Shown piece by piece: positions 5,422 through 17,018 of a stretch of DNA of 64,000 nucleotides (position 1 is its first letter; every line of letters begins with the position of its first letter). The stretch is from assembly GCF_019966545.1 (NCBI RefSeq), contig NZ_JAIMIC010000007.1, positions 1 through 64,000 of the forward strand. Direction: 5' to 3'. The position numbers and the translations under genes are program-made. Source of the stretch: Heliomarina baculiformis. Lineage in GTDB: Bacteria; Pseudomonadota; Alphaproteobacteria; Rhodobacterales; Rhodobacteraceae. The notes under the pieces are model-generated. The model made no database searches, was not told the DNA's origin, and saw only the letters and a list, made by a program, of their open reading frames with translations.

Positions 5422-5444
5422 GGCGCCTTAGGGAGTCGGCAGGA

Positions 5445-6065
5445 ATGAAACCAGAGGCCGTGATATTCGATATCGGCAACGTTCTGATCGAATGGCAACC
5501 GGAGCGCTTCTACGACAGCGAAATCGGTGAGGAACGGCGACGCGCCCTGTTCGGCTCCGTCGATCTGCATGAAATGAACAACGACGTGGATCGCGGCCAC
5601 CATTTTACCGAAACCGTCTATGCAACCGCAGAGGCGAACCCCGACTGGCGCGCGGAGATCCGCATGTGGCACGATCGCTGGATCGAGATGGCAGCACCGG
5701 TGATCGATCATTCCGTCCGCCTGATGCAAGCCCTGCGTGGCAAGGGTATTCCTGTATTCTCGCTCACGAATTTCGGCATCCAGAGCTTTGACCTTGCCGC
5801 GTCGCATTACCCCTTCCTGCTGGAATTCGACCGCCCCTACATTTCCGGACATATGAAGACGGTGAAACCCGAACCGCAAATCTACGCGATGGTGGAACAG
5901 GATTGCGGCGTCGCCCCCGAAGCGCTGCTGTTCACCGACGACCGCGAAGACAATATCCGGGTCGCCAATTCGCGCGGCTGGCAGACTCACCTTTTCACCG
6001 GTCCCGAGGGCTGGGCGGACAAGCTCGTCGAAACCGGACTGCTGAGCCGGGAGGAAGCCGCATGA
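5445..6065 (+). CDS. HAD-superfamily hydrolase (subfamily IA, YihX-like phosphatase)
   Basis: 206 residues from the ATG at 5445, preceded by GGGAG. A longer frame starts at 5397, but its extra 16 residues have no ribosome site and run through a hairpin. Motif I is IFDIGNVL (7-14, nucleophile D9); the Asp two residues later is replaced by Gly, as in YihX-type glucose-1-phosphatases. Motif II is SLTN, motif III a Lys in VKPEPQIY, and motif IV is FTDDREDN. It overlaps the next gene by four bases (ATGA). A small phosphatase or haloacid-dehalogenase role is likely; the substrate is unknown. Confidence 0.85.
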   Translation: MKPEAVIFDIGNVLIEWQPERFYDSEIGEERRRALFGSVDLHEMNNDVDRGHHFTETVYATAEANPDWRAEIRMWHDRWIEMAAPVIDHSVRLMQALRGKGIPVFSLTNFGIQSFDLAASHYPFLLEFDRPYISGHMKTVKPEPQIYAMVEQDCGVAPEALLFTDDREDNIRVANSRGWQTHLFTGPEGWADKLVETGLLSREEAA

Positions 6066-6982
6066 ACACGCCATTCATCACCTTCGATCAGGGCGAGGCA
6101 TTGCTTGACTGGGTTTCTTTCACGCAGGCACTCAAGGAAGGACACAAGCTGCCCAAGGCCGAGATCGGCGATACCTTCCTCTACCGTGGCAAGGATACGC
6201 TCTTATCGCGCGCCGCGTGGATCGACGGCCTCGGCATCGCGGTCAAATCGGCGACCGTGTTCCCGGACAATCCCGATCAGGGCAAACCGGTCGTCAATGG
6301 CGGCGTCAGCCTCTATGCCGATGGCGATGGGACGCTTGACGCGATTGTCGATTTTCACCTTGTGACCAAGTGGAAAACCGCCGGGGACAGCCTGCTTGGC
6401 GCGATGAAACTTGCCCGCGCCGACAGCAGGAACATTCTGATCGTTGGCGCTGGCACCGTCGGGCGGTCGCTCTGCGAGGCTTTTGGCGCTGGATTCCCCA
6501 ATGCAAAGCAAGTGCTCTGGAACCGGACCACGAGCAAGGCCGAAGAACTGGCCCGCAATCTTGACGGGGTCGACGTGGCCGAGGACCTGCCGTCTGCCGT
6601 GGAGACTGCCGATATCATCGTCACCGCCACGATGGCCACCAGCCCGGTGATCCGGGGCGAATGGCTGCGTCCCGGCCAGCATCTCAACCTGATAGGCGCC
6701 TACCGCCCGGATATGCGCGAGACCGACGACGCGGCGCTGCAACGCGCCCGGATCTACGCCGACAGCTTCGACACCACGCTGGACCATATCGGCGAATTCA
6801 AGATCCCGCTGGCAGAGGGAGCACTGAAGCGCGAACAGGTTCTGGCCGATTTCTACAGCATCGACCGGTTCGAACGGGGCACTGACAAAGACATCACCCT
6901 GTTCAAGAACGGCGGCGGTGCGCATCTGGACCTGATGACCAGCCGCCACATCCTTGACCGCTGGATCGCGTCGCAGGCCTGA
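6062..6982 (+). CDS. Ornithine cyclodeaminase / mu-crystallin family protein
   Basis: 306 residues. The Rossmann dinucleotide site is ILIVGAGTVGRSL in the middle of the protein, and the substrate-side lysine lies in LGIAVKSATVFP near residue 58. Family members include ornithine cyclodeaminase, alanine and ketimine reductases. The remaining active-site residues are not distinctive enough for me to choose between them, so ornithine is not assured as the substrate. The start overlaps the HAD stop by ATGA, giving a translationally coupled pair. The next gene is convergent. Confidence 0.85.
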   Translation: MNTPFITFDQGEALLDWVSFTQALKEGHKLPKAEIGDTFLYRGKDTLLSRAAWIDGLGIAVKSATVFPDNPDQGKPVVNGGVSLYADGDGTLDAIVDFHLVTKWKTAGDSLLGAMKLARADSRNILIVGAGTVGRSLCEAFGAGFPNAKQVLWNRTTSKAEELARNLDGVDVAEDLPSAVETADIIVTATMATSPVIRGEWLRPGQHLNLIGAYRPDMRETDDAALQRARIYADSFDTTLDHIGEFKIPLAEGALKREQVLADFYSIDRFERGTDKDITLFKNGGGAHLDLMTSRHILDRWIASQA

Positions 6983-8224
6983 TCAGGCTGTCAGCGGCCG
7001 GGCCAGCGGCTTTTCCCGCACCGGGAGGTGGATGATCGCGCTGAACGCCCCGATGCCGACACCGATCCACCAGACAAGCGTGTAATCGCCGTAGACGTCG
7101 TAAAGCCGCCCGCCAAGCCAGACACCGAGAAAACTGCCAAGCTGGTGGCTTAGAAAGACGAACCCGTAAAGCGTGCCCATGTAGCGTAGACCGTAGATAT
7201 GCGCGACCAGACCCGAGGTCAGCGGCACAGTGGCCAGCCAGAGCGAGCCCATGACGATTGAAAACAGGATGACGGTTATGGGTGTGATCGGCATGATGAT
7301 GAACAGCCCTGCCGCGATGGTCCGCCCCGTATAGATCGCCGCCAGCAGGTATTTCTTAGAATACCGCTGCCCAAGCCAACCGGCAAGCAGCGTCCCGGCC
7401 ACATTGGCCGCCCCGATCAGCGACAGCGACACCGCGCCCAGCGCCGAGGTCGTGGTGACCCCGACCGAATGGAGCACCCCGCCCGGCAGGATCGGCCCGC
7501 ACAGCTCGGTCACGAAGGCCGGGAAATGGGCGGTGACAAAGCCAAGCTGGTAGCCGCAGGAAAAGAAACCCATAAAGATCATCGCGAAAGACGGGTCGCG
7601 AAAGGCGCGCAGGACCACCGTGCCCATGCTCTCTTCCAGCTCGGCCTTTCCGGCGCTGACCGGTGCCCGCATGAAGGGCAAAAGCAGGATCGATGCGACC
7701 ATGACCGCGGCAAAGACGAGGAAGGTGCTTTGCCAGGTCAGGAACCCGAGCATCCATTCCGCCACCGGTGCGCCGACGATCTGGCCACCGCTGCCCGCCG
7801 CCGACACAATGGCCAGCGACATGGATCGATTCTCATCCGAGGCGGCGCGCCCAACGACCGCAAGGATCACGCCGAACCCGGTACCCGCAATGCCGAACCC
7901 GACCAGCCATGCATAAAGCTGATGCTCGATCGGCGAGGTCGATCCCGCCGACAGAACCATACCCGCCGCATAGATCAGCGCGCCGATCAGGATCGCCTTG
8001 CGGTCCCCGATCTTTTCCGCGATGGCGCCAAAAATCGGCTGTCCGATGCCCCAGGCGAGGTTCTGGATCGCGATTGCCAGCGAAAATTCGGTCCGCAGCC
8101 AGCCGAATTCCTCGGCAATCGGAATCTGGAACACGCCGAAAGAGGATCTGACCGCAAAGCTGAGCAGGATGATCAGGCAGCCGGTGATGAGGACCGGCGT
8201 AAGAAGAGGGGCGGATCTGGGCAT
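6983..8224 (-). CDS. Major facilitator superfamily transporter
   Basis: 413 residues from the chosen ATG at 8224, where the first membrane helix (PVLITGCLIILLSFAV) follows closely. The open frame extends to 8308, but the extra 28 residues look non-coding. Twelve transmembrane segments can be traced, with an MFS-like loop (AEKIGDRKAI) between TM2 and TM3. The closest family feel is to oxalate/formate- or monocarboxylate-type MFS carriers, but this is only an impression. It converges on the cyclodeaminase with no gap. Confidence 0.85.
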   Translation of the reverse strand: MPRSAPLLTPVLITGCLIILLSFAVRSSFGVFQIPIAEEFGWLRTEFSLAIAIQNLAWGIGQPIFGAIAEKIGDRKAILIGALIYAAGMVLSAGSTSPIEHQLYAWLVGFGIAGTGFGVILAVVGRAASDENRSMSLAIVSAAGSGGQIVGAPVAEWMLGFLTWQSTFLVFAAVMVASILLLPFMRAPVSAGKAELEESMGTVVLRAFRDPSFAMIFMGFFSCGYQLGFVTAHFPAFVTELCGPILPGGVLHSVGVTTTSALGAVSLSLIGAANVAGTLLAGWLGQRYSKKYLLAAIYTGRTIAAGLFIIMPITPITVILFSIVMGSLWLATVPLTSGLVAHIYGLRYMGTLYGFVFLSHQLGSFLGVWLGGRLYDVYGDYTLVWWIGVGIGAFSAIIHLPVREKPLARPLTA

Positions 8225-13012: not shown

Positions 13013-13918
13013 TCAGCGGCGAATGGCAAGCCGCGCGGCAAGCCAGCTGACGACGATAAAGCCAAAGTCGACGAGCATCCAACTGCGCAGGTTTTCCGTT
13101 TCAGACAGGCTGAACGGTGTCGTGGCAAGGGCCAGACCGCTGAGCGAATCCGGCACAGACACGATCAGGATGGCGGTGACATTGTTTATCATGTGCAGCG
13201 CAATCGCCGGTCCCAGCGTTCCGGCCCGCGCCGTTATGTCCGCAGCCATGACACCGAAACCAAAAGCCCAGACCGCGATGAGGGCCGCATTCGCCCCTGC
13301 CTGTGCCGGGACATAGTGGCCGATACCAAAGAGAATCGCCGGCACTACCATCCATACGAGCGGAGAGCGGAACCGCGCCGCGAGCGACTGCTGGATATAG
13401 CCGCGAAACAGGATTTCCTCGCTTGCGACCTGTGTCAGCACCGCCAGCAGCGAAATCGGCAACAGCGCCAGCCAAATACCAACCGGCAGGTTGGACTCCA
13501 GCGGTTCGCCCATGTCATAGGGCGGCAGGATCATCACCAGAATGCCAAGCATGACGACCAGCACCGCAACCCGCAGGAATTGCCGGATCGCCAGTGGCAG
13601 CGGCCCGATCATCGACAGGGGCGATCTTTGCTGCACCAGCCGGGCCGCGACGAAAATGCCAAGGATCACGAAACCAAAGCTGAACAGCAGCAAAAGCAGG
13701 GTCAGTGGCGTGTTGCCTTCACCGTTGGCGGGATTGAGCAACTCGCGCTGGAAGTCCGGCGAGACCACGCCAAGAACGGTCCGCATCGCGAACCCTGCGA
13801 AAAACGTGACAAAGCCCGCGACGATCAAACCTAGCAAAAGCCGCCAGATCTGCGGTTTTTCGCGGGCCGTTGCGACGAGGTTCTCGTGCGGGCGATAGGC
13901 GCCTTCAGGCATCCGCAT
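13013..13918 (-). CDS. CPBP family intramembrane glutamic protease
   Basis: 301 residues with about eight membrane helices. The Abi/CAAX-like catalytic motifs are present: EE at 167-168 followed by R172 (SEEILFRGY), H201 in GIGHYVP and H242/N246 in ALHMINN. CPBP proteins cleave within the membrane or act as self-immunity or signalling proteases; the target here is unknown. Its start overlaps the end of the ABC-like gene upstream by 14 bases on the same strand, so the two are translationally linked and may work together. Confidence 0.9.
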   Translation of the reverse strand: MRMPEGAYRPHENLVATAREKPQIWRLLLGLIVAGFVTFFAGFAMRTVLGVVSPDFQRELLNPANGEGNTPLTLLLLLFSFGFVILGIFVAARLVQQRSPLSMIGPLPLAIRQFLRVAVLVVMLGILVMILPPYDMGEPLESNLPVGIWLALLPISLLAVLTQVASEEILFRGYIQQSLAARFRSPLVWMVVPAILFGIGHYVPAQAGANAALIAVWAFGFGVMAADITARAGTLGPAIALHMINNVTAILIVSVPDSLSGLALATTPFSLSETENLRSWMLVDFGFIVVSWLAARLAIRR

Positions 13919-16900
13919 GTCCGCCGTAGCTCTTGGTGCTGAAGCTGGTCATCGATGACATCTGGTCGTTGTCGAGGTTTTGCGCACGCAGGCGACTGGC
14001 GGCAGAACTCAGGTGCCCACCCATGGTTTCAAGCAATTGTACCGCCACCGACGGATCCGTTTCGATGACCGTGCGGAATTCCTCGGCCCCGATCCGCAGA
14101 AACATGCTTGGCTCCGTCGCGACGAGATCCGTCTGGCGCACCTGTCCAGTTATCACCGACAGGTCGCCGATGAGACGCCCGGGATTGATCACAGTAAGCG
14201 GCGGTGTATCCGCATCCCCATGGGGCCAGCGCAATTCGGCCTGACCGGACAGGCAGAGATAGGCGGCATCGGGTTTCTCGCCGGTAGAAAAGACAACCTG
14301 CTCGGTGTCAGCCTCGTACCACTTGGCCGAAAAGGCCAGCAGCCGCAGGTTGCGCGGGCTGAGTTTTGCAAAGAGTTCGGTTTTGGCAAGCGCCCTGATC
14401 TTGCGCTGAAGATCGGCCGTTGCCTTTTCCGACATCTTTTTCTGGCCCGAGCAATCGGTCCCGGCGACCCTACCATCCACGATCTCGACGAAAAAGTCAT
14501 ACTCGCCCGGGTTCTCGAACCGGTCTTCGAGAAACAGGATGGTGGTATTAGGCAGAAGATCGCGCAGCTTGGCTCTTGTCTGCGCCCGGCTTTCGGAATC
14601 GTGGCTCGCCAGCGCGTGATCCATCAACAGGATATCCGGACGTTTGATGGCAGCGCGGGTAAAGGCCGATCGTTCCTGAAGCAGGGTCGGCAGGTTCGCA
14701 CCGCCCAGCCCGATGTGCATGTCGTAGATGATCGCCGCGGCGCGTTTGCGCATGTCATGCTCACTCATCACTTCGGCCACCACCTCTTCGACGGCATCGG
14801 CCTTGGCCCCTGCCATGATCGAGACCCTGCCAAAGATCGCGTTCTCGATGACCGTCAGTCTTTGCATATAGGTGTCGGCCCGGATCGGTTCAAAGAGATC
14901 GCTGACGTAATTGCGCAACTCGTCGACCTTGGCGCGACGGATTTCGAGGATTTCCTGCTTGTACTGATCGGGAAAGCTCGGGCCGATCTGCTCGGCCGTG
15001 AGCAGGAAGGGAACAGTCAGCATCAGCGCCCTTTCCTCGGCCGACAGAGCACCATTGCCCCGTGCAGCGCGCTTTATCGCGATGTCATTCAGGCGCGCGT
15101 AGACTTCGTCGCTGATGCCAAGACGGCGGAATAGCGGGTGATCGGTGCCGTCGAGTCCGAAGGTCTGGCGCAGAGTCTCGATAACCGCCTGCGCGACATT
15201 CAAAGCTTCGCCGTCGAGCCTTTCTTCTCGCAGCATTTCGACGAAACGCGGATTTCGCGCCAGTTTCTCCGGCGGGATGTCCTGTGTTGGCGTCGCAAAG
15301 AACAGGTTGCCGCCCAGCGGCATCGCCGGGTTAAACGCATCCGGGTCGAACCGGTAGACAACGTCGCTTAGCCCTCTGGCCCGCAGCCTTTCGGCGATTT
15401 CGGGGCGCAGGGCCACGATATCCGCTGCGAGATTCTTGTGAATCTCGGGATCGAAGGTGGTGCGCAGGGTGCGGCGGAACATCTGCTCATCAATCCCCAT
15501 TGCCTCGAGCAACTGGAACCACCAGTCCCGGATTTCGGTCGCGTTCGAAAGCCCGGCCAAATCGGGATCGATCCACTTCACATCAAGCGGATCGGTGCTG
15601 TTCCCCGACCGCTGTGCTTCGCTCAGCTTGCGGTCTTTGCCCTGCGGATCCCATATCACCGACTGCGGTTTGATCCGAAGCGGCATCAACAGGTTATCGG
15701 CCAGCGTACCCTCGAAAATGTAAGGCCGTGAATGTGCATAACCGATACGCGTCGCGATGATCGACTGGTGCAGAGACTCGAGCGGATAGCCGGACACGGT
15801 GATCCAGCCACGGGTTGGCGTGATCTCGCGGGTCAGAAGCCGGGCTATGGCAGCCCTCTCGTTTTCTCCGGTACTTTGGATTGCGACACGACCGCCGGCA
15901 GGGATTGTTAGGCTCACGTCTTCGAGCACGGCATTACCGTCTTCGTCCTGAACCGAGACCTTGTGGAATTCTATATCGCCGTTCAGATGCGGAATCATGT
16001 CCGGCTCACCGTCGAAGAGCTCGGGGGCGATCATGTTTTTCGGGGCAAAGCGTTCTGTCACGACCTTCCAGCGCAGCGACATATCCTGAACCTGGTTATA
16101 ATAGGTCAAAAGCTCTTTCCACGGCGCGCTCAGATCCTTGTAGGCCGCAAGACCAGCCACCAGGGCGCCGACGGTAATATCGCCCTGAATCGCTAGATAA
16201 CCACCTACGGAATAAAAGAAAAACGGCGTGAGATGCCCGATCATGTTGTTCAGGAACTTCATAAAGAATTTCTTTTGGTAGATCTGAAAGCGGATATCGA
16301 ACAACCGCCCCAGCCGGTCGGTGAACTGGGCAAGCCGATAACGCCAGCCGCCATTCGCGCGCAGGTCACTGATCCCGGCGGCGGTTTCGCCGATCTCGGA
16401 ACTGAAGGCGCGGATTTCCTGAATCCGGTCCTTGTTCAGCAGGTTGATCTGACGTTGCAGGCGCGGGATCAGCCATGCCTGAAGCGGGATCAGCGCGACA
16501 GAAGCAAGGCCGAACCAGATGCTCTGGGCAAACAGGAAGATCAGGATCGTCATCATCTGGCCGAACTGAAAGGCAGGCTGTGCGACCGCGTCGCCCATCA
16601 GCCCGCCCATCGGTTCCGCCTCGGAGGTGATCATCGACACCAGTTCGCCCTGACTGGTGGTGCGGAAATATGGCACCGGAAAGCGCATCATGCGCGAAAT
16701 CAGCTGGTATCGCAGCCGCCGCAGCATCCGTTCGGACAAGACACCTTTCATGGTGTTGATGCGCATCTTCATCATGCCGCTCAAAAGGACGGCGGCAAGG
16801 AAGGCAAAACAGAGCAACAGCAGGTATTCGACCTGCGTCATGGTCAGACCGAAGGCCTCGACTGTGCCGCTGGGTGCGCCGATTGCATCGTTGATGATCC

Positions 16901-17018
16901 GCTTGGGCAGTTCCAGCGAGGCATAAAGGAAGGGAAAGGAAACCAGCGTGAAAAACAGCAGGAGTATCTGCTGGCGCTTGGAATGCTTCCAGATGAAAGA
17001 AAACAGGGTACGGTCCAT
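13905..17018 (-). CDS. ABC exporter-like protein with degenerate ATPase, large insertion and C-terminal cNMP-binding domain
   Basis: 1037 residues from the ATG at 17018, which has a GGAAGGA site; a frame extending to 17084 adds 22 unlikely residues. Residues 10-320 are a six-helix type-I exporter membrane domain. The nucleotide-binding domain starts near 348, but its Walker A position reads VAIQSTGENERAAIARLL (378-395), without GKS/T. The LSGGQ position reads LPTLL (777-781) and Walker B ends in MDH rather than DE (799-801). About 300 extra residues (445-770) lie between the two halves. Residues 880-1000 form a cyclic-nucleotide-binding-type domain. Active transport by ATP hydrolysis therefore looks unlikely for this chain alone. 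It is cotranscribed with the CPBP protease. Confidence 0.85.
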   Translation of the reverse strand: MDRTLFSFIWKHSKRQQILLLFFTLVSFPFLYASLELPKRIINDAIGAPSGTVEAFGLTMTQVEYLLLLCFAFLAAVLLSGMMKMRINTMKGVLSERMLRRLRYQLISRMMRFPVPYFRTTSQGELVSMITSEAEPMGGLMGDAVAQPAFQFGQMMTILIFLFAQSIWFGLASVALIPLQAWLIPRLQRQINLLNKDRIQEIRAFSSEIGETAAGISDLRANGGWRYRLAQFTDRLGRLFDIRFQIYQKKFFMKFLNNMIGHLTPFFFYSVGGYLAIQGDITVGALVAGLAAYKDLSAPWKELLTYYNQVQDMSLRWKVVTERFAPKNMIAPELFDGEPDMIPHLNGDIEFHKVSVQDEDGNAVLEDVSLTIPAGGRVAIQSTGENERAAIARLLTREITPTRGWITVSGYPLESLHQSIIATRIGYAHSRPYIFEGTLADNLLMPLRIKPQSVIWDPQGKDRKLSEAQRSGNSTDPLDVKWIDPDLAGLSNATEIRDWWFQLLEAMGIDEQMFRRTLRTTFDPEIHKNLAADIVALRPEIAERLRARGLSDVVYRFDPDAFNPAMPLGGNLFFATPTQDIPPEKLARNPRFVEMLREERLDGEALNVAQAVIETLRQTFGLDGTDHPLFRRLGISDEVYARLNDIAIKRAARGNGALSAEERALMLTVPFLLTAEQIGPSFPDQYKQEILEIRRAKVDELRNYVSDLFEPIRADTYMQRLTVIENAIFGRVSIMAGAKADAVEEVVAEVMSEHDMRKRAAAIIYDMHIGLGGANLPTLLQERSAFTRAAIKRPDILLMDHALASHDSESRAQTRAKLRDLLPNTTILFLEDRFENPGEYDFFVEIVDGRVAGTDCSGQKKMSEKATADLQRKIRALAKTELFAKLSPRNLRLLAFSAKWYEADTEQVVFSTGEKPDAAYLCLSGQAELRWPHGDADTPPLTVINPGRLIGDLSVITGQVRQTDLVATEPSMFLRIGAEEFRTVIETDPSVAVQLLETMGGHLSSAASRLRAQNLDNDQMSSMTSFSTKSYGGHADA

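Follow-up and report, generated by a model that had tools for sequence, protein, structure and literature searches.

What can an ATP-binding cassette (ABC) exporter do when the residues that hydrolyze ATP are gone? This question is raised by a gene for a 1037-residue protein in a 64,000-nucleotide stretch of DNA from Heliomarina baculiformis (contig NZ_JAIMIC010000007.1, positions 1 to 64,000; hereafter the window), which an earlier note, made from the sequence alone, had described as an exporter-shaped protein with an apparently dead ATPase, a large insertion, and a tail resembling a cyclic nucleotide monophosphate (cNMP)-binding domain. Our analysis suggests that it belongs to a mainly alphaproteobacterial family of type-IV exporters that is likely to be part of a surface-polysaccharide system, and, with a probability that we put at about 0.42, that it is a motorless member of this family translocating a glycan without ATP hydrolysis of its own.

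The gene is an uninterrupted open reading frame (ORF) on the minus strand, from the ATG at 17018 to the stop at 13905, and its start methionine occupies an alignment column common to the homologues G006a, G025, and G027 (handles starting with G and L designate genomes and loci, respectively). Comparison of the protein with Pfam gave matches to ABC_membrane (76.5 bits, above the cut-off) and to cNMP_binding (PF00027; 45.6 bits, cut-off 27.5), and a match to ABC_tran that stayed below its cut-off (19.6 bits, cut-off 25). When the PDB sequences were searched by phmmer, exporters aligned to the protein in two blocks, at about residues 98-445 and 747-852. The place of the Walker A motif is taken by STGENERA (residues 382-389), that of the Q-loop by GYAHSRP, that of the signature by LPTLL (residues 776-780), and that of the H-loop by FLED; the Walker B region reads ILLMDHALASHD (residues 796-807), with the Walker B Asp retained and the catalytic Glu gone. 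Of the residues expected at a functional ATP site (GxxxxGK[ST] in Walker A, LSGGQ, Walker B D-E, and an H-loop His), the Walker B Asp is all that the protein has kept. A model of residues 340-875, made by AlphaFold2 from 62 sequences, had a mean predicted local distance difference test score (pLDDT) of 88.6 and matched solved nucleotide-binding domains (NBDs) of exporters with a Z score of 24.3 and 2.4 Å over 224 of 536 residues. The full-length model (mean pLDDT 82.2) matched PCAT1 (8vox) with a Z score of 24.4 and 4.2 Å over 421 residues, and other exporters tied with PCAT1 within 1 Z. The NBD fold is kept in the window protein, as these matches to solved exporters show. On these data, the observations of the earlier note were borne out as to the exporter membrane domain and NBD, the altered Walker A, signature (LPTLL), and Walker B Glu (MDH), the fold-level pattern around them, and the cNMP-like C-terminal domain.

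The ratio of nonsynonymous to synonymous substitution rates (dN/dS), calculated against G001, another species of the genus, was 0.055 for the whole gene, and by parts 0.023 for the transmembrane domain (TMD), 0.020 for the NBD N lobe, 0.055 for the insertion, 0.057 for the NBD C-terminal part, and 0.143 for the cNMP domain. The lowest dN of any part was that of the TMD (0.0066). The dead NBD is thus under strong purifying selection and is not drifting.

The fate of the ATPase residues was followed in an alignment of 147 long members, comprising the window protein, the copies of a named-genome scan (the best 80 of 535 confirmed stretches), and fetched relatives; seven ORFs under the length or score limits were left out (L107 in two pieces, L025, L030, L033, L034, and L203, the last being a divergent full-length member). 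The Walker A Lys was kept in 31 of the 147 members and Lys together with Ser/Thr in 2, the catalytic Glu in 27, the Asp-Glu pair in 4, and the H-loop His in 16; Asp or Glu stood at the Walker A Ser/Thr position in 47, and a single homologue, L172, kept all five key residues. Within a Roseobacter-group set of 91 (79 loci of the named-genome scan, the window, and 11 loci of the same family, with a few gammaproteobacterial bins included), the Lys, the catalytic Glu, the H-loop His, the Q-loop Gln, and the signature Gln were each kept in none, and the Walker B Asp in 56. Each of eight motif positions changed 6 to 16 times on a tree of 81 TMD rows, which excludes L201 (a very long branch) and the TMD-only rows and is unrooted, the direction of loss being taken from the intact motifs of ordinary exporters. 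A sequencing error or a recent loss, for which the earlier note had proposed a search for homologues with intact motifs, is excluded because the sites have changed many times and the whole set of 91 lacks the Lys, Glu, and His. Read from these sequences, motif decay forms a class-wide graded series of intact, partly dead, dead, and NBD-less relatives. As for single copies, L107 (5986-9006), one of the 80 named-genome copies and from the Roseobacter group, is broken by an in-frame stop. The frame is not open throughout in the Sinorhizobium meliloti 1021 record (L251, NC_003078.1, near 841723-844435); the copy of strain R14 is open, and the match in strain 2011 is equal in length to that of R14.

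The insertion, which the earlier note had placed at residues 445-770 and assigned to no family, proved to be present, with a smaller extent: residues 705-799 align with the ordinary pre-signature region, and the extra sequence covers about 290 residues (about 445-735). The region consists of three stretches (repeats 1 to 3), each opening with a motif resembling xxENLLFG, and profile comparisons give it a family after all, the NBD itself. By hhalign, repeats 2 and 3 matched with 98.3% probability over 63 columns and a score of 80.8 (maximum of 100 column shuffles, 20.2). Repeat 1 matched repeats 2 and 3 with weak probabilities of 67.9% (16 columns only) and 48.3%, or 36.2% and 48.4% with insert columns removed, and with scores of 27.7 and 27.4, above all 100 shuffles in each case (maxima 15.6 and 17.8). 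Against ten ordinary exporters from related genomes (maximum of 60 shuffles, 16.9), the values were 99.0% over 75 columns with a score of 92.8 for repeat 3, 96.3% over 29 columns with a score of 52.6 for repeat 1, and 42.4% over 15 columns with a score of 27.2 for repeat 2. These matches, among the repeats and to ordinary exporters, are the reason why the insertion is best read as tandem copies of the Q-loop-to-signature segment of the NBD; the duplication of repeats 2 and 3 is firm, and the proposed third copy, repeat 1, rests on its ENI motif and the shuffle scores. A foreign domain was also considered as the source of the insertion and was rejected in favor of the repeats; the insertion profile had no match among PDB sequences at E up to 1 (a sequence-level search; a structure search with the insertion alone was not made), and in Pfam two unrelated families each matched one of its 9 members (E 0.042 and 0.07).

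When a 9-row insertion profile was run against 385 sampled alphaproteobacterial genomes, 132 of them, in 88 of 277 genera, gave a match at E up to 0.001, and removal of one marginal match (G365, E 9e-4) left the family in 131 of the 385. In a draw across the phylum, 33 of 398 genomes were matched, the two outside the class being marginal partial matches: the gammaproteobacterial genomes G437 (L222) and G715 (L221) have ORFs of about 230-264 residues that cover 80 positions of the insertion model (E 9e-4 and 3e-4) and may be treated as unproven candidates. The best 80 of the 535 stretches of the named-genome scan came mostly from Ruegeria, Sulfitobacter, Tateyamaria, and other Roseobacter-group bacteria. 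Plasmid records carrying the family include Rhizobium, Sinorhizobium, Mesorhizobium, Azospirillum, and Ruegeria among others, and among the plasmid rows shown the gene is annotated as ABC transporter protein, cNMP-domain protein, hypothetical protein, or not at all. No published work on this protein family was found by titles and abstracts. Three loci, L086, L087, and L095 (Oceanospirillaceae, Granulosicoccus, and a gammaproteobacterial bin), nest in the Roseobacter-group clade, by horizontal transfer or misbinning.

The surroundings of the gene point to surface glycans. Outside the Roseobacter group it is often divergent from a conserved run of genes for glycosyltransferases, a histidine phosphatase, and a deacetylase-like protein (a label taken from rhizobial annotation, with no Pfam match), with a methyltransferase gene near; glycosyltransferase clusters were found in 35 and 29 of the 67 loci outside the named-genome scan. 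Among 41 relatives, strong glycosyltransferase matches (E under 1e-90) were present in ten genomes, of which G004 and G005 have a TMD-only form and the other eight the full protein, and weak matches in five further genomes, G023 among them. Across the 385 class genomes, both the ABC-like protein and the glycosyltransferase were found in 125, the former only in 7, the latter only in 2, and neither in 251, with thresholds that were set after the matches had been seen and that leave out G365 and eight generic ABC matches (E 1e-20 to 1e-23). An ABC importer operon (ATP-binding protein, substrate-binding protein, and two permeases) lies upstream of the glycosyltransferases in two rhizobia, and the glycan cluster of the window's genome has three ORFs that cluster with the importer-operon genes of other loci (the stretches concerned are L225, 146-3731; L248, 5180-11150; and L249, 4385-10347).

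On Rhizobium johnstonii pRL11, S. meliloti pSymB, and Mesorhizobium WSM1497, the neighborhood holds glycosyltransferases, a nucleotide sugar dehydrogenase, and adenylate/guanylate cyclases (L248, L249, and L250, with a second S. meliloti strain, L245), and a gene for a cNMP or Crp-like protein lies just downstream of the family gene. In the excerpts of PMC10128002, the phazolicin-protecting polysaccharide (PPP) is described as an uncharacterised surface polysaccharide of S. meliloti that needs nine genes between smb21252 and smb21271, that shields the bacterium from an antibiotic peptide, and that is linked to the adenylate cyclase gene cyaA; smb21252 and smb21265 mutants are hypersensitive to phazolicin, and several genes of the cluster are likely involved in symbiosis. 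Predation raises the expression of seven of the nine genes, according to an excerpt of PMC10315480. Gene order suggests that the S. meliloti homologue, which is also ATPase-dead, lies in the smb21252-smb21271 region and that it may be one of the nine PPP genes; the excerpts of PMC10128002 contain no mention of the protein, and no match to smb2125x-2127x tags was found in PMC7268258.

The cNMP domain is fused to the protein in 98 of the 147 members, and in 46 it is encoded by a same-strand gene no more than 1.5 kb downstream; in 3 it was neither fused nor found within that distance. The Gly and Arg of the phosphate cassette are kept in all 98 fused copies, and the position of the cassette Glu holds Glu in 29 and Asp, as in the window, in 69. 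The nearest PDB sequence is that of the cyclic-nucleotide-binding protein 5d1i (8e-12), and a search of the window's genome gave seven class III cyclase matches above the family cut-off.

TMD-only relatives, of about 330-490 residues, end before the NBD and were seen among the matches of at least 18 genomes. Fourteen such rows form one fork with a Shimodaira-Hasegawa-like approximate likelihood ratio test (SH-aLRT) value of 96, obtained under a simple model and subject to a long-branch warning; close to this fork lie the Roseobacter-group clade and fused members, among them L192, L194, and L198. Under a mixture model, with five long-branched rows removed and half of the remaining full-length rows dropped, 11 TMD-only rows lay on one side of a branch with a support of 93. 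In G348 (91% complete), a 345-residue TMD-only protein (L229, 2197-3231) is encoded divergently beside glycosyltransferase genes, the usual place of the full protein, and G004 and G005 have a TMD-only form and a glycosyltransferase gene; the insertion was not found in any of these three genomes. Other TMD-only genes have neighbors of their own. L025 (6818-8212, minus strand; contig C4 of the window's own genome, G000) encodes an extra N-terminal hydrophobic stretch and is flanked by copper-binding (azurin/SoxE-like) and cytochrome c genes, and L228 (6543-7781, minus strand) has such a stretch and neighbors that are copper-oxidase-like by eye only. At L030 (G005), the TMD-only gene (6938-7993, minus strand) is followed, after about 470 nt, by an adenylate/guanylate cyclase gene (5436-6464, minus strand; Guanylate_cyc, 121.9 bits); examination of the other 13 TMD-only loci revealed no cyclase.

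Taken together, these data lead us to propose that a TMD dimer would translocate a lipid-linked glycan, or let it across, without using ATP hydrolysis of its own. Passage would be scramblase- or channel-like, with synthesis or polymerisation providing the pull; the dead NBD, together with the enlarged helical arm, may form a coupling platform, and the cNMP domain, in cis or from the gene just downstream, could switch the TMD via the NBD in place of ATP. A more specific version is doubtful: the motor would have been lost many times, and the whole NBD in one related group, and the TMD would be an ATP-independent scramblase or channel for a glycan lipid, gated by cNMP in the full-length forms via the multiplied NBD arm.

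Several observations weigh against glycan translocation by a motorless exporter. The product of the glycan cluster is uncharacterised and no lipid carrier is established for it, and in the window's genome the glycan genes, among them the glycosyltransferases that in S. meliloti belong to the PPP region, lie away from the exporter-like gene on another contig (C33). The Fisher p of 8e-90 for co-occurrence is inflated by the shared ancestry of the genomes, and G023, possibly discordant, has glycosyltransferase fragments of 41-43% identity and no family member. The five key residues of L172 indicate that some members may hydrolyze ATP. A tblastn search (E up to 1e-4) of the 14 fetched TMD-only stretches gave no cNMP relative, and because of this the cNMP domain tracks the NBD and is ruled out as a switch of every form. 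A cyclase gene as a general feature of the cluster is likewise ruled out, since it was found at 9 of the 67 and 2 of the 80 loci and holds true of the three rhizobial species; the stretches examined from Azospirillum and Ruegeria TM1040 carry no annotated cyclase. Because TMD-only paralogues often occur alongside full-length proteins, and lie in other contexts, G348, G004, and G005 are the main support for the idea that the TMD functions by itself.

The earlier note had left open whether the protein is a regulator, a scaffold, or a transporter driven another way, and each of these stays supported as an option. As a scaffold or regulator, the exporter fold would act as a nucleotide-sensing receptor in the membrane that holds glycosyltransferases or controls them without any transport, much as SUR controls another membrane protein. 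This view, possible if somewhat unlikely, draws on the dead N lobe, which has the lowest dN/dS of any part although its motor residues are all gone and which suits a scaffold equally well, on the enlarged helical arm, which suits protein contacts, and on the cNMP domain, which 144 of the 147 NBD-bearing members have fused or nearby and which was found near none of 14 NBD-less forms. The TMD, however, has the lowest dN and is what remains once the NBD is gone, which fits a membrane pathway better. Decay of a relic, or an annotation artefact, could account for the lost motifs and for the broken copy L107, and is hardly credible in view of a dN/dS that contradicts decay, 147 long open copies, and a fold predicted with confidence.

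Type-IV exporters function as dimers, and the missing hydrolysis might come from a partner, an intact ABC half-exporter whose gene lies elsewhere. Exporters in which one site is degenerate are established, as described in the abstract of PMC7544095. Apart from the family gene, four ORFs in the 147 loci have an intact Walker A and LSGG. The one at L208 aligns with the exporter model across TMD and NBD, two others align with it in the NBD alone, and the fourth has no match to it; the fetched stretches of the other 146 loci contain no intact ORF of at least 400 residues matching TMD and NBD (farther partners were not searched). The known degenerate-site exporters lose some motifs of one site and are not known to lose all, the full-length paralogue in the window's genome is dead too, and G348, G004, and G005 have TMD-only forms with the insertion absent, all of which makes a heterodimer improbable. 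Much less probable still is a residual or unorthodox ATPase, in which changed residues would take over, such as the Asp or Glu at the Walker A Ser/Thr position of many members outside the Roseobacter group. That substitution looks too regular for drift, and one member retains the five key residues, but in the window's set the Walker A Lys is missing together with the P-loop glycines, and so are the catalytic Glu and the H-loop His.

Among known systems, the type-IV exporters PCAT1, MsbA, TmrAB, and TM287/288 have the TMD and NBD folds in common with the window protein and match it in sequence, whereas the window protein lacks a working Walker A, Walker B Glu, signature, Q-loop, and H-loop and its family has a tandemly enlarged helical segment and a C-terminal or neighboring cNMP domain. 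PglK-type flippases also place an ABC exporter fold in a glycan setting, but PglK requires ATP hydrolysis, and the protein scored below the NCBIfam cut-offs for PglK (35 bits, cut-off 1000) and MsbA (131 bits, cut-off 602). CFTR, a channel, and SUR, a regulator, put the exporter fold to non-pump use, as proposed here, and still bind nucleotide and retain part of the motifs; SUR2 chains were among the structural matches of the window protein models. HetC likewise joins an exporter to a cNMP-type domain, which is needed in vivo and binds ppGpp in vitro; as described in excerpts of PMC10986499, it has an N-terminal cNMP domain, a C39 peptidase, and an essential ATPase catalytic residue. In contrast, the cNMP domain of the window family is C-terminal or in trans and the ATPase residues are missing, and no peptidase family in Pfam matched the window protein at E up to 1, which leaves it without a C39 domain.

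ABC exporters are defined by the coupling of ATP hydrolysis to transport, and a large, selected family of dead and NBD-less forms associated with polysaccharide genes would show that the membrane domain can work motorless. The graded natural series may allow this coupling to be dissected. The proposal also offers a candidate component for the PPP polysaccharide of S. meliloti and a possible direct route from nucleotide signaling to glycan export.

Table 1. Features of the exporter-like gene and its downstream neighbor in the window (residues refer to the exporter-like protein)
Feature	Residues	Position	Strand	Remarks
Whole gene, ATPase-dead ABC-exporter-like protein		13905..17018	-	1037 aa, ATG start
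Type-IV exporter TMD	1-333	16020..17018	-	Pfam ABC_membrane; full-model fold match; dN/dS
NBD N-terminal lobe	345-423	15750..15986	-	Walker A place STGENERA at 15852-15875
Repeat 1	422-548	15375..15755	-	Normal Q-loop/ENI beginning with extra helical stretch after it; hhalign
Repeat 2	550-702	14913..15371	-	Additional copy; hhalign against repeat 3
Repeat 3	705-799	14622..14906	-	Normal pre-signature segment, degenerate LPTLL at 14679-14693; hhalign
NBD C-terminal part	799-858	14445..14624	-	Degenerate Walker B (MDH) and H-loop (FLED)
cNMP-binding-like domain	905-988	14055..14306	-	Pfam PF00027; PDB sequence matches; conservation
CPBP (Rce1-like) intramembrane protease gene		13013..13918	-	Pfam PF02517; 14-nt overlap with the end of the exporter-like gene

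The CPBP ORF begins 14 nt (or 8 nt, from a second in-frame ATG) inside the end of the exporter-like gene, an overlap that fits the translational link to an intramembrane protease suggested in the earlier note; the protease is not supported as a general partner. By tblastn, 43 of 45 members with at least 58% identity to the window protein have a CPBP gene as their direct downstream neighbor, as do 11 of 16 at 54-58%, which makes 54 of 61 at 54% or more; of the more distant members, none of 29 and none of 57 has it (0 of 86, two of them with too little downstream sequence). The protease is therefore a neighbor in the window's subclade only and not of the family, and a CPBP protease as the functional core of the family is ruled out by the distant members. 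All 38 of the adjacent CPBP copies that were examined have intact EExxxR, FxxxH, and HxxxN motifs; the window copy, which was not one of them, reads EEILFR, FGIGH, and HMINN. Finally, the family member of G018 (L029, 6851-10375, minus strand) carries an extra Ala-rich low-complexity segment of about 90-110 residues between the TMD and the NBD.

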